Part shown: piece after piece, positions 9,331-59,967 of the stretch
Position numbering within the stretch: position 1 is the first letter of the stretch
How the letters are laid out: each line of letters opens with the position of its first letter
Assembly (NCBI RefSeq): GCF_013372265.1
Contig: NZ_CP054051.1
Location: 1,438,587 to 1,502,586, forward strand
DNA from: Aliarcobacter cibarius
GTDB lineage: Bacteria; Campylobacterota; Campylobacteria; Campylobacterales; Arcobacteraceae
Length of the DNA stretch: 64,000 nt
Reading direction: 5' to 3'
Made by a program: the position numbers and the translations under genes
The notes under the pieces: generated by a model
What the model was told of the DNA's origin: nothing
Databases searched by the model: none
What the model saw: the letters and a program-made list of their open reading frames with translations, nothing else

Positions 9331-9440
9331 AATTATATACTCCTATAAAAAAATTGATAAAATTATTACTCGGCTTTGTTAATTTGTTGTTAATCTTTTT
9401 AATAGTTAATTATTTTTATTAATATTAGATATGTAAGAAT

Positions 9441-55480: not shown

Positions 55481-57280
55481 TTAGAAACTAGCCTTTAAAC
55501 CTAAATATGCAGCTCTTTGACTTGTTGCATAACCATCAACAACTTGATAATCTTTGTCAAAAATATTATCAAGTTTTACATAAGTTGAAAAAGTTTTATT
55601 TATATCATAATCAACAACTGCATTCCATATTGTGTAATTTCCAGTTTTTGCACCTTGTTGATCAATTCTATCATATCTTGTACCTACATATTCACCATTT
55701 ACATTAAAATGGAAATCTTTTAGACCATAATAATCAACTCCAAAACCAACTTTATTTTTAGCTCTTTTTGCTAAATATTCATCTTTATCATTTTTAGCAC
55801 TTAAATTTGTATAATTAAAATTTAGTAGAACATCTTGTGTAATATAGTTTTTATAAGCAATCTCAACACCTTTAATCTTACTTTTTCCTTCTATATTATT
55901 GTAAGCTCCATCCCAAGATTGTGGTATAGTTACCCAGTCTATCATATTTTCAACTTTATTATTGAAATAAGTAATAGATAAACCTTTATACTCAATTCCT
56001 AAATCATAAGATTTTGTTTTTTCTGGATTTAAATCAGGATTAGCACCCCATTGACCAAAAAGTTGACTGATAGTTGGCACATTATAACCTGTTCCATAAT
56101 TTGAACTAACATTTAATTCATCAATAATGTATTGTTTAATTCCTATTTTTCCAGTAGTTTTATTTTCAAAATCACTGTACTTATCATACCTTAAAGCTTG
56201 TGTGAATATAGTATTATCATCAAAAAACTTATTTGTATTTGTTATAAAAATACCTTTGTTATTATATTCATCCAACACATCTTTTTTAGTTTCAAACTTT
56301 TTATAATCTCCACCAATAGTTAAATTTGAAGAGTTTAAATAATCAATACTTGTATTTACTCCATACTCTTCTACATTACCTTCATATTCTCCAAAGGAAT
56401 ATTCTCTTTTTATATCTGTATAATTTGTATAAACTTTTGTAAGGGCTATATCATTTTTATTTTCATAGGTAAGATTTGCTAGATATGTTTTAGTTTTAGC
56501 TTGACTAGCTTTATCATCTGGAAAATTGTCATAATCAACTTTTGTATCAATTATTTCATAAGAAGTTGAAACTCTATTATTTTCATCAAAGTTATATCCT
56601 AATTTAAGATTTGCAGTTGTATTTTCATATCCATCATCTTCATATTTGCTTAACTTCTCATCTTTTGGAACTTTAGCTGAAAAACCATCTGTATCAACTC
56701 TAGTTGCACTTAATTTTGCATCAAAATTTTTATCTTTGTGTGATATATTTGCTTTTGCAGTTTTACTATTATATCTTCCATATTCAACAGTTGCATTTCC
56801 ATGTGTTCCATCTTTTGCAGATTTTGTAATAATATTTATAACACCTGCACTTGCATCTGCTCCCCAAATACTACTTTGAGCTCCTTTTATAACTTCAATT
56901 CTTTCTATATCATTTATCATAAGATGCTCAAAATTTGCAGTTCCATTAGGACTTGTAATATCATTATATCTTACACCATCTATTAAAACTAAAGTTCTAT
57001 GAGAATCCATTCCTCTTAGAAAAAGAGAAGTTTGTTGACCTATTCCACCACTTGGTGATACTTGAATTCCAGGAATTGTCTGTAAAGCTTCAGAAACTGT
57101 CTTAAATTTTCTATCTTCAATTTCTTGAGCAGTTATAACATCAACATTGGCCGTTACATCTCGTAATTTTTGTTCAGATTTTGTAGCACTTGTAATAGAA
57201 ATTTCTTCTAAAGTAGTTTGTGAGTATAAATTTGTTGCTATTAAAAAGCTTGCAACTAAGCTTATTTTTGTTTTTTTCAT
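55481..57280 (-). CDS. btuB: TonB-dependent receptor, BtuB-like
   Basis: 599 residues: signal peptide, plug (SVTSATKSEQKLRDV-like region through GVINIITK), barrel and terminal YLGLKASF. Size and the end NIFDKDYQVVDGYATSQRAAYLGL resemble BtuB, the vitamin B12 receptor. No cobalamin riboswitch is visible upstream, where the gap to the next gene is only 15 bases. Confidence 0.8.
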   Translation of the reverse strand: MKKTKISLVASFLIATNLYSQTTLEEISITSATKSEQKLRDVTANVDVITAQEIEDRKFKTVSEALQTIPGIQVSPSGGIGQQTSLFLRGMDSHRTLVLIDGVRYNDITSPNGTANFEHLMINDIERIEVIKGAQSSIWGADASAGVINIITKSAKDGTHGNATVEYGRYNSKTAKANISHKDKNFDAKLSATRVDTDGFSAKVPKDEKLSKYEDDGYENTTANLKLGYNFDENNRVSTSYEIIDTKVDYDNFPDDKASQAKTKTYLANLTYENKNDIALTKVYTNYTDIKREYSFGEYEGNVEEYGVNTSIDYLNSSNLTIGGDYKKFETKKDVLDEYNNKGIFITNTNKFFDDNTIFTQALRYDKYSDFENKTTGKIGIKQYIIDELNVSSNYGTGYNVPTISQLFGQWGANPDLNPEKTKSYDLGIEYKGLSITYFNNKVENMIDWVTIPQSWDGAYNNIEGKSKIKGVEIAYKNYITQDVLLNFNYTNLSAKNDKDEYLAKRAKNKVGFGVDYYGLKDFHFNVNGEYVGTRYDRIDQQGAKTGNYTIWNAVVDYDINKTFSTYVKLDNIFDKDYQVVDGYATSQRAAYLGLKASF

Positions 57281-57503: not shown

Positions 57504-58214
57504 TTATATGTGACAATTCAATATTGATTTTGTTGGATCAACTATATATTCATAACCTTGATAAGCTATATATATTCCAAAAATAATCACTAAAATAGAA
57601 GCAATTCTTATAAAAGTATCTCTAAGATTTGATTGTTTGAACAAACCTATAAAAAATCCTAAAAAGAATAGTGCTGGGATTGTACTAATTCCAAAAATAA
57701 ACATAACAACAGCACCCCAAAAAGCACTTCCTGTACTAGCAGCTGTAATTGCAAAAACATACACAAAACCACATGGTAAAAGACCATTTAAAAGTCCCAA
57801 AAGATAAAAACTAAATAAAGAATTACTACCCAAAAGAGCTTTAAAATTTTTTTGATAAAAACTTGATTTTGAACAAGTTTGCTCTAAAAATGATAAAAAT
57901 TTAACTTTTCCCAAAAGAGAAAATCCAACTAGAATCATCATAAGACCAGTAATTAAAAGCATTACACCACTTGTTATATTGGAAAAACTAACAACTCCTC
58001 CAACAAAACCAAATATTGCTCCTAAAAGTGTATAAGTTGTAACTCTCCCAAATGAATATAAAAGATGAGCTACACTTTGTGTAACTTTGTTATATTCACT
58101 TTTTATTTTTGTGCTTGAATACGCTACAACAATTCCTCCACACATTCCTATACAGTGTCCAAAAGAACCTAAAAGCGCAATAGTTATAATTGAAATTACA
58201 CTAATTGCTTCCAC
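57504..58214 (-). CDS. SafE/DsbD_2-like membrane protein (sulfite exporter TauE/SafE annotation)
   Basis: 236 residues, six membrane helices. Signature GSFGHCIGMCGGIV at the start and LNGLLPCGFVYVFA in the middle: each half carries a conserved Cys/Pro segment like DsbD/CcdA relatives. Such proteins are linked to copper handling and cytochrome oxidase assembly. It overlaps the NosL-like gene by one base. Confidence 0.75.
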   Translation of the reverse strand: MEAISVISIITIALLGSFGHCIGMCGGIVVAYSSTKIKSEYNKVTQSVAHLLYSFGRVTTYTLLGAIFGFVGGVVSFSNITSGVMLLITGLMMILVGFSLLGKVKFLSFLEQTCSKSSFYQKNFKALLGSNSLFSFYLLGLLNGLLPCGFVYVFAITAASTGSAFWGAVVMFIFGISTIPALFFLGFFIGLFKQSNLRDTFIRIASILVIIFGIYIAYQGYEYIVDPTKSILNCHI

Positions 58215-58738
58215 TATTTATGCTCACTATGATTATCATGATTGTGTTGTTTAAAATTTGGATTAGCTAAAGTCTCTTTTCTTAAAACTTTTAAAAGCAT
58301 CTCATCAAAACTTATAAAATTTTCACTACTATTTTCATAAGCACCAAACCCGAATTTCATTGGTGTTTCTTCGTTTGTACTAAAAAAAGCATCTTTTGCT
58401 TCAATATATCTTTTACTATCTTTCGTCATAACAAAAATTTTAATACTATTTTTAAATTTATTATCTTTAGAATTTAACCAATTTCCTAGCCCTCCATGAT
58501 CATGAAAAAACCAAGTTTTTCCATCAATAGATACAACTTGTGAAGCAAAAGTTAAATCATTTATAACCATTCCACAATCACTATCTTGATATTTTCCTAA
58601 AACTATTTCTAAAGGTACTTGAGAAATATTTCCTTCTTTAACAACAACCATTTTTTGTTGTTTTGCCATAGATATAAATATTATTAAAATAATTGAAGCT
58701 ATTAAAACTATAGTTAATATTGGTAAAAGTTTTTTCAT
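58214..58738 (-). CDS. NosL-like membrane-anchored metal-binding protein
   Basis: 174 residues: N-terminal membrane anchor (about 4-25), then DSDCGMVINDLTFASQVVSIDGKTWFFHDHGGLGNWL, a pattern (quoted DCGMVI, then FHDHGG) similar to the copper-binding NosL family. A His-rich tail HNHDNHSEHK may bind metal. Together with the SafE-like gene it suggests a copper-related function next to the btu cluster. Confidence 0.65.
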   Translation of the reverse strand: MKKLLPILTIVLIASIILIIFISMAKQQKMVVVKEGNISQVPLEIVLGKYQDSDCGMVINDLTFASQVVSIDGKTWFFHDHGGLGNWLNSKDNKFKNSIKIFVMTKDSKRYIEAKDAFFSTNEETPMKFGFGAYENSSENFISFDEMLLKVLRKETLANPNFKQHNHDNHSEHK

Positions 58739-58782
58739 ATTATATTCTCCAAAATAAAGACAGATTGTATCTTTTTTGGCAT

Positions 58783-58905
58783 AAAAAAAGGCTTTACAGA
58801 GGGAAAAACTGTAAAGCCCGTATAATTAATTTATTTCAAAAAAAGTATAGGATACTATTAAAAATTGTATTTAGTAGTAGGAGGATTCAATACAAATATC
58901 CTATG
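58783..58905 (-). ncRNA. Candidate small RNA or attenuator leader
   Basis: Minus strand: TATAAT at 58917-58912 predicts a start near 58905. The RNA would fold at once: ATAGGATA pairs with TATCCTAT (58897-58904 with 58847-58854), inside it TTGTATT pairs with AATACAA (58889-58895 with 58865-58871), leaving a 17-nt loop that holds UCCUCCU. It ends with a strong terminator. About 120 nt. It may be a trans-acting RNA that targets ribosome sites, or an attenuator for the NosL-like gene starting 45 bases further on. Confidence 0.5.
58790..58818 (-). terminator. Strong intrinsic terminator
   Basis: GGCTTTACAG (58790-58799) and CTGTAAAGCC (58809-58818): a perfect 10-bp stem, 9-nt loop, followed on the minus strand by seven T. 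It has no protein gene upstream on its strand, only the candidate small RNA. Confidence 0.8.
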
Positions 58906-59023
58906 AGTGAAATTATAAATTATCTAACTTTAAAATAAGATAAAATTTGTCTTATTTTAATTAACTTTTTGCTAATTTTAAAATTATATAATTCTAATAT
59001 TAATTTTTTAAAGGCATTTTTTT

Positions 59024-59662
59024 ATGAATATGATTATTTTTGATATGGATGGAACTCTTATAAATAGTGGTTATGCAATAGCAAACACCGTAAATTATGT
59101 AAGAGAAAATTTGGGTTTAGAAACATTAGAGAGAGATTTTATTTTAGAAAATATAAATGACATAAATGTAAACAGTGCAGAATTTTTTTATAATAGAAAA
59201 GTTTTTACTCCTGAAATAAAAGAGTTATTTGAAGATTATTATAGTAAAAATTGTTTGGTAGACTTACATATTTATGATGGTATTAAAAAACTTTTAGATA
59301 ATTTTAAAAGCGATTTTAAATATTGTATTGCAACAAATGCAAACTCTGAATATGCTAGAAAAATGTTAAATCATTTAGAAATTGAAAACTATTTTTCTTC
59401 AATTGTAGGATACAACGATGTTGAAAAACCAAAACCAAATCCTGATATGGTAAATATATTATTAGATAAATATAGTATAAAAAAACAAAATGCTCAACTT
59501 GTAGGTGATTCAAATAAAGATATCATGGCTGCAACAAATGCAGGTATTGAAGGTATTCTAGTAAATTGGGGATTCTCAAATTATAACGATGCTTTAAACA
59601 GTGTTGAAGAATTAGAGAAAAAAATCATCGAAAAGTTTTATAATATAATAGGTAAACAATAA
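59024..59662 (+). CDS. HAD-family phosphatase (phosphoglycolate phosphatase-like)
   Basis: 212 residues: motif I FDMDGTLIN (nucleophile Asp), motif II IATNA, motif III Lys in KPKPNPDM and motif IV VGDSNKDIMAA. Cap type and size fit Gph/PGMB-like enzymes; substrate uncertain. AAAGG precedes the ATG. Its last four codons (GGT AAA CAA TAA) lie in the P1 helix of rnpB, which is encoded on the other strand. Confidence 0.82.
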   Translation: MNMIIFDMDGTLINSGYAIANTVNYVRENLGLETLERDFILENINDINVNSAEFFYNRKVFTPEIKELFEDYYSKNCLVDLHIYDGIKKLLDNFKSDFKYCIATNANSEYARKMLNHLEIENYFSSIVGYNDVEKPKPNPDMVNILLDKYSIKKQNAQLVGDSNKDIMAATNAGIEGILVNWGFSNYNDALNSVEELEKKIIEKFYNIIGKQ

Positions 59663-59967
59663 GCCGCGTTTTGTCAAGGACAATAATTTATCTAGGCGTT
59701 AAATCACTTTAACGCTCTTGCGAAGACCAAAAAATGTGAAGTAAATACCAGATCTTCTTGCTGCAGGTTGGGTTTACAAAGCCAAAAAAGTTACTTTTTT
59801 TGCTGGTGAGCTCTTACCTCACCGTTTCACCATCACCAATAAAATTGGCTGTCTACTCTCTGTTGCACTATCCCTTAGATTACTCTAGCCATTATTTAAA
59901 TGGAACCACACTTCACAGCAGCCCGGACTTTCCTCTTGAAATATCAAGCTATTGTCTTGTTTACCTA
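59650..59967 (-). ncRNA. rnpB: RNase P RNA
   Basis: About 318 nt, class A. P1 is visible as AGGTAAACAA at the 5' end (near 59966) and TTGTTTACCT at the 3' end (59650-59659). Conserved pieces: AGAGGAAAGTCCGGGCT (near 59921-59937), ACAGAGAGTAGACAGCC, GGTAAGAGCTCACC, and AACGCGGCTTA near the 3' end. The catalytic RNA matures tRNA 5' ends. Ends are approximate. Confidence 0.93.

Follow-up and report, generated by a model that had tools for sequence, protein, structure and literature searches.

The window analyzed in this work, a 64,000-nt stretch of the Aliarcobacter cibarius genome, contains an intergenic gap bounded by a divergent HAD-type phosphatase gene (59024, plus strand) and a small operon (58738, minus strand). 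Inspection of this gap revealed a minus-strand unit in which a TATAAT box is followed by a hairpin with a 17-nt UCCUCCU-containing loop and then by an intrinsic terminator (Table 1). A previous sequence-only reading of this DNA had described these parts, including the nested stems, and each of them was found where that reading had placed it. The 5′ end of the predicted RNA (near 58904) was placed from the -10 box and the 3′ end from the T tract. The terminator was missed by a simple terminator scan because its 9-nt loop exceeds the limit of 8 used in that scan. The terminator loop UUUUUCCCU (58800-58808) is also C/U-rich, with CC or CCC kept in the genus on a covarying stem, and may represent a second pairing site. 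Two open reading frames in this region were considered and rejected, namely, a small ORF whose sole start in the own-genome loop region (TTG AAT CCT CCT ...) is TTA in many relatives, and a 72-aa ORF on the opposite strand that we regard as spurious. An RNase P RNA gene (RF00010, 247 bits) is located close upstream (59645-59967, minus strand).

Table 1. Positions of the predicted small RNA, its parts, and the adjacent genes in the window.
Feature	Position	Strand	Basis or remark
Predicted small RNA, ~122 nt	58783..58904	-	Hairpin and terminator; conserved in 29/31 genus genomes
-10 box TATAAT	58912..58917	-	TA and last T conserved in genus alignment
Conserved upstream box, consensus AAATARGAYAAATTTTATCTTATTTTAA	58930..58957	-	Imperfect inverted repeat
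FUR-like 6-1-6 core GAYAAATTTTATC within upstream box	58951-58939	-	
Stem 1 (outer), 5′ arm AUAGGAUA	58897..58904	-	Fold
Stem 1 (outer), 3′ arm UAUCCUAU	58847..58854	-	Fold
Inner stem, 5′ arm UGUAUU	58889..58894	-	Fold
Inner stem, 3′ arm AAUACA	58866..58871	-	Fold
17-nt loop GAAUCCUCCUACUACUA, conserved seed UCCUCCUAC	58872..58888	-	Fold and homolog comparison
UCCUCCU inside loop	58885-58879	-	Sequence
Intrinsic terminator hairpin GGGCUUUACAG-UUUUUCCCU-CUGUAAAGCC	58790..58819	-	Fold; 6/9 pairs changed on both sides
Terminator T tract	58783..58789	-	Sequence
GATACAAT, candidate -10 box of a separate promoter for the downstream operon	58764..58771	-	Sequence and relatives
174-aa membrane-anchored protein, called NosL-like by the sequence-only reading	58214..58738	-	Outside the RNA
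DsbD_2 (PF13386) membrane protein	57504..58214	-	Neighbor

The 145-nt stretch folds at -27.7 kcal/mol, compared with -14.3 ± 2.7 kcal/mol for 200 dinucleotide shuffles, none of which folded as well (z = -4.9); the opposite strand folds more weakly (z = -3.1, 3/200 shuffles as good). In a first search, strong DNA matches to the gap were found in all 24 same-genus genomes examined. A covariance search across relatives, which the sequence-only reading had proposed, was conducted with a model built from 25 members under strict filters that can lose weak matches. One copy was found in 29 of the 31 genus genomes (the two misses are draft genomes with completeness of 95% and 54%), and matches were present in 45 of 104 Arcobacteraceae genomes, including 16 from four other genera (g20, g25, g32, and g35). 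In an order-wide draw of 298 genomes, all 15 genomes with matches belong to Arcobacteraceae. An exact 13-mer scan, from which 15 places were fetched, provided two further homologs recognized by eye: one in G076 (L240) and a second copy in G099 (L247); the other 13 places look like chance or coding sequence. This second copy (minus strand, near the 13-mer CTCCTACTACTAA) is diverged, with the loop CUCUCCUACUACUAA and its own terminator. The promoter, judged by sequence alone, and the intrinsic terminator are conserved together as one unit. No gathering-level Rfam match was found in the gap (the best sub-threshold match had 20.4 bits vs. 59); up to an E-value of 10, there were four sub-threshold matches with E-values of 1.3 or more, and the RsaE model that Rfam holds was not among these. 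A literature search provided no description of such an RNA among the matches listed. Based on this conservation and anatomy, a new, family-wide small RNA is nearly certain; the conserved unit is very probably a structured RNA, and its status as a stand-alone transcript is less certain.

Among 23 distinct sequences from the genus, standard pairs account for 98.2% of the pair cells. The whole structure contains 23 double-change cells; shuffles contain 6.1 and slid controls 0 to 4. In the terminator, six of the nine pairs have changes on both sides and none is broken. Stem 1 hardly varies, with seven of its 10 pairs invariant within the genus and a single G-U change in its eight-pair arms among these 23 sequences, and therefore provides little covariation information there. 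Thus, the compensatory changes that the sequence-only reading had expected in the stems are evident for the terminator but not for stem 1 within the genus. In genus g25, the loop reads CCUCCUACUACUAA, or CCUCCUACUACCAA in one member, and is carried by a stem with a different sequence, for example, GAAAAUUAAAA/UUUUAAUUUUC. As for the loop that the same reading had described as exposed, minimum-energy folds of the 45 homologs have the UCCUCCU seed wholly or mostly open in 33, consisting of 22 with the motif fully unpaired (18 of them as a simple hairpin loop) and 11 with five or six bases unpaired; in the remaining 12, pairing, usually with the 5′ side, closes part or most of the loop. The AGGAU of the 5′ arm could toggle between pairing with the 3′ arm, which leaves the loop open, and pairing with the loop, which closes it, and this may be a reason for the invariance of the 5′ arm.

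The genes downstream bear on whether this RNA acts in cis. The 174-aa NosL-like neighbor has no Pfam match and is missing in some species, and a DsbD_2-like gene (judged by its start and MCGG motif) is found downstream of the main RNA copy in all five genera. A functional link between the RNA and this operon is likely, because the same operon lies beside the main copy in five genera and only the second copy in G099, which adjoins a HAD-phosphatase-like gene, differs. This pattern, together with the placement of the terminator between the promoter and the operon, fits the alternative raised in the sequence-only reading, in which the element is a cis-acting leader (i.e., an attenuator or riboswitch) that steers read-through into the NosL-like/DsbD_2 operon. 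However, a separate TATAAT follows the terminator at a distance of exactly 14 or 36 nt in 15 of 25 genus loci, with a few more loci having one nearby; in the own genome, the corresponding GATACAAT is weaker than TATAAT. Such boxes would fit transcription of the downstream operon from a separate promoter. Furthermore, the conserved loop fits the leader of the adjacent gene weakly, with energies of -4.7 to -8.3 kcal/mol over 21 loci (L003, L005, L007, and L012, with mis-picked starts, were omitted), the second copy in G099 precedes a different gene, and no Rfam riboswitch match was found in the gap. By reading, the DsbD_2-like gene is already the first gene behind the terminator in five loci (L005, L007, L009, L010, and L016), and the RNA is still present. 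Because the operon is kept in five genera, we rated the attenuator slightly higher, and our preferred reading slightly lower, than we did at first. With the evidence on both sides considered, a cis-acting leader appears rather improbable, and the terminator covariation, the conservation, and the loop-site matches best support a stand-alone small RNA whose loop would pair with ribosome sites. A TonB-dependent-receptor-like gene is located behind the DsbD_2-like gene in several genera (L061, L062, L072, L074, and L075) and also in the window (55481-57280, minus strand).

For the prediction of targets from the loop, which the sequence-only reading had proposed while naming no targets, we searched the 31 genus genomes for AGTAGGAGG-N1-12-ATG. 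Among the 83 rows obtained, 23 with a 16S rRNA string (four fetched loci with this string were confirmed as 16S), one duplicate, and 13 without a 60-aa ORF (three of these were judged from a string identical or nearly identical to a fetched one) were removed, leaving 46 gene starts. We found that 37 of these 46 AGUAGGAGG sites precede respiratory metalloenzyme genes: ccoN (17), genes for SoxA/TsdA-like cytochrome c (10), the hydrogenase small subunit (four), nrfA (two), and one each of nosZ, cytochrome b561, hemerythrin, and dihaem cytochrome c. The others are a 114-aa protein without a family (three) and six more, namely, two of one family, flgF-like, flgB, and two further genes. Gene names are based on comparisons of one member per metalloprotein family with Pfam/NCBIfam, and the rest were assigned by reading. 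Iron proteins (haem, Fe-S, or non-haem) account for 36 of the 46 predicted sites and a copper enzyme (nosZ) for one. A control motif, AGAAGGAGG, in which the strong ribosome site is kept and the T-A pair is broken, provided 24 rows with one duplicate and 11 gene starts: norB-like (three), YbaB-like (two), the 114-aa protein (one), and others (five), several of them named by reading. The respiratory share is thus 37/46 for the target sites and 3/11 for the control sites, counts that rest on orthologs; when counted by gene family, the shares are 8/14 and 1/8 in what is a small sample. Strong ribosome sites precede the conserved 114-aa protein (MAKVIFMHF...) repeatedly, in L333, L090, L098, and L342; the copy in L333 has no Pfam or NCBIfam match.

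The most frequent predicted target is ccoN. This gene is present in all 31 genus genomes and is preceded by GTAGGAGGA in 29 of them (the exceptions are G011 and G004). Among 19 other Campylobacterales (by record title), neither this nine-mer nor GUAGGAGGA was found before ccoN, and the pairing energies between the loop and the ccoN leader range from -7.3 to -13.3 kcal/mol. The site is also absent before ccoN in one Arcobacteraceae contig (L156) and before the second ccoN copies in G021 and G045. Two draft genomes (G042 and G043) have the ccoN site and no RNA match. The string AGTAGGAGGAGATTGATG, which is the ccoN string in the genus, has string-level matches in genera g18 and g19 among the matches listed; the covariance search identified no RNA in either genus, although its model may be too narrow for them.

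We also compared the loop extensions with the ccoN sites that they face. Most loops with UACUACUAA face UUAGUAGGAGGA before ccoN and form 11 pairs. In G019, the altered loop UACAAAAUU faces AAUUUUGUAGGAGGA and forms 15 pairs with it, and the loops with UACAAUU in G015, G022, and G024 form 11 pairs. In seven other genomes (G000, G002, G006, G012, G046, G008, and G023), the site retains UGUAGG opposite a loop with UACU, such that the sites do not follow the loops. The tenth base of the loop is not matched by changes in the ccoN site in one subclade. When the loop flanks around UCCUCCU were shuffled 500 times in each of 22 genomes, the native flanks added to the pairing of the core with ccoN in only 12 (p ≤ 0.05); for the own genome of the window, the p-value is 0.19 (0.15 with 1000 shuffles). 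Because the sites in those seven genomes do not follow their loops and this p-value level was reached in 12 of 22 genomes, the evidence for coevolution between the loop and ccoN is suggestive only. Conservation of the ccoN leader extends past the bases that would pair.

Within the own genome, the pairing energy of the loop was calculated for 303 ORFs in a 364-kb sample that consists of the window and 20 spaced stretches (mean -6.0, standard deviation 2.6). The best match is a chemoreceptor-like gene (-18.7; L363, position 10013, plus strand), which has UUUAGUAGGAGGA before its TTG start. Second is a cytochrome c peroxidase-like gene (-17.9), which also starts with TTG; the names of these two genes come from reading. 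Third is ccoN (-16.5). The next value is -14.2, and none of the genes ranked fourth to eighth has an evident role in respiration. A value of -18.8 was obtained for the hydrogenase small subunit gene, which the genome-wide pattern identified outside this sample. The top rank of the chemoreceptor-like gene, together with the norB-like genes found by the control motif, could mean that the small RNA is real and its respiratory bias a by-product of strong ribosome sites, with true targets elsewhere, such as this chemoreceptor-like gene. We consider this unlikely, though deserving of attention, given the respiratory shares of the target and control gene starts and the lack of GTAGGAGGA in all 19 ccoN leaders from outside the family. 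It is still less likely that a stand-alone RNA uses its loop as a mimic of the 16S rRNA tail, titrating a protein or acting on ribosomes generally. The seed is the anti-Shine-Dalgarno sequence itself, and genus g25 has ACCUCCU, as such a mimic would have; however, conservation extends in most members to UACUACUAA, an extension that presumably has no counterpart in 16S rRNA, and matching extensions are found before respiratory genes. The preferred reading remains that of a trans-acting RNA with respiratory mRNAs as its predicted targets.

Regarding the regulation of this RNA, a block with the consensus AAATARGAYAAATTTTATCTTATTTTAA precedes the -10 box and is strongly conserved in the genus. The core of this block, GAYAAATTTTATC, is arranged 6-1-6 like a FUR-family box and differs by two to three letters from GATAATNATTATC. 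Exact or one-off matches to GATAATNATTATC were found at 12 sites in 512 kb of own-genome loci, some of which overlap; by reading, the gene that follows is Fur-family-like at one of these sites and AhpC-like at another. In the window, a relaxed FUR box has four matches vs. 2.2 expected by chance, which is not above chance. Searching the own genome for GAYAAATTTTATCTTATTTTAA with up to three mismatches provided six sites, compared with three in a reversed control. A regulon defined by this box was considered and rejected; two of the six sites fall in the box of the RNA itself, and the remaining sites have no obvious iron gene behind them.

TTAACA direct repeats with 11-bp spacing take the place of the box in G009, in G014, and in the other genera. 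By count, these repeats are not enriched: with one mismatch allowed, there are 30 sites in the own genome vs. 35 in the reversed control (11 of the 30 outside ORFs), and 33 vs. 40 in 12 genomes. Of the 33 sites in the 12 genomes, 30 were fetched and all of these lie outside ORFs, where 11.5% of the locus bases are found, although the motif is AT-rich and biased to gaps and the position count covers the motif's own sites only. Because the counts do not exceed the reversed control, the support for this motif comes from position and recurrence only. The 30 sites precede this RNA (10), nosZ (five), copper-receptor-like (TIGR01778) TonB genes (four), other TonB receptors (two), PCu(A)C genes (two), porins (three), ccoN (one, on the opposite strand and ~110 nt upstream), and three further genes, with several named by reading of the N-terminus. 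One TonB protein tested against TIGR01778 scored 117 bits, which is below the cut-off of that model. The repeats before nosZ, ccoN, PCu(A)C, and copper-receptor-like TonB genes (L284, L298, L303, L305, and L285) suggest an undescribed copper/respiration regulon in Arcobacteraceae that is marked by TTAACA repeats. In the window, an ATTAACA-N4-ATTAACA direct repeat (9377-9394, minus strand) lies upstream of a TonB-dependent-receptor-like gene.

The geometry of these repeats resembles that of the HP1043 motif in H. pylori, published as TTTAAG-N5-TTTAAG at 11 bp (PMC5253667). A CosR/HP1043 homolog is on record in Arcobacter butzleri (PMC3139631). CosR itself was considered; its published 21-bp consensus is unlike the TTAACA repeats. 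An HP1043-type regulator of this RNA is thus a lead rather than a result, and the promoter boxes as a whole hint at a FUR-family and/or HP1043-type regulator.

Several known RNAs are similar to this one in some aspects. RyhB depends on Hfq and Fur; the phylum studied here is not known to have Hfq. As for the iron-sparing RNAs RyhB and PrrF, most of the predicted targets here are haem, Fe-S, or non-haem iron proteins and the upstream box has a FUR-like 6-1-6 geometry; the copper enzyme gene nosZ among the predicted targets is a difference from RyhB. In Bacillus and Staphylococcus, the promoter of RoxS/RsaE is controlled by the response regulator ResD/SrrA, the former of the OmpR type. This control is tied to respiration, and the C-rich regions of RoxS/RsaE are able to bind G-rich ribosome sites belonging to redox genes (PMC4409812). 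The present RNA would share this mode of C-rich pairing but has one main seed, whereas RoxS has several C-rich regions; it also differs from RoxS/RsaE in having the terminal oxidase, cytochromes, and hydrogenase as predicted targets and no Rfam match. Another RNA for comparison is RepG from Helicobacter pylori, which belongs to the same phylum as this organism. RepG uses a C/U-rich loop to pair with a G-rich leader, and its target tlpB encodes a chemoreceptor (PMC8295292). RepG acts through its terminator loop on a homopolymeric G-repeat, whereas the RNA described here would act through a 5′ hairpin loop on the ribosome sites of many genes. The CcsR1-4 RNAs of Rhodobacter sphaeroides, named for their CCUCCUCCC loop motif, likewise have an anti-Shine-Dalgarno loop. 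However, these RNAs arise by processing of a transcript that also yields ccaF1, and they interact with Hfq and have flhR as a target (PMC8307010), whereas this RNA appears to have its own promoter. By analogy, this RNA may work in kind like RoxS/RsaE and RyhB while being a member of neither.

Taken as a whole, we consider it probable that this locus encodes a stand-alone, trans-acting small RNA that blocks the ribosome sites of respiratory metalloenzyme mRNAs. A promoter with regulator boxes would start transcription at the hairpin, and the intrinsic terminator would end the transcript of ~122 nt. In the cell, the open loop, consisting of UCCUCCUAC and a variable extension, would pair with GUAGGAGGA ribosome sites just before start codons, with ccoN of the cbb3 oxidase as the main predicted target among the respiratory metalloenzyme genes. 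Covering of these sites would lower the translation of respiratory metalloenzymes, and the signal may be metal or redox status as sensed by a FUR-family and/or HP1043-type regulator. A more elaborate metal/redox circuit is possible, though we hold it as tentative and on balance doubtful: the FUR box and an HP1043/CosR-type repeat would drive the RNA, the repeat would also lie upstream of ccoN, nosZ, copper-receptor-like TonB genes, and PCu(A)C, and the loop would switch off iron/copper respiratory enzymes. If so, the RNA would be a metal-sparing master RNA and part of a candidate feed-forward loop. If the trans-acting reading is true, an undescribed RNA family would tie the terminal oxidase, hydrogenase, and cytochromes of these bacteria to one post-transcriptional switch. 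It would also provide concrete RNA-mRNA pairs in a branch with few small-RNA targets known, with a promoter motif that points to the regulator of the RNA.
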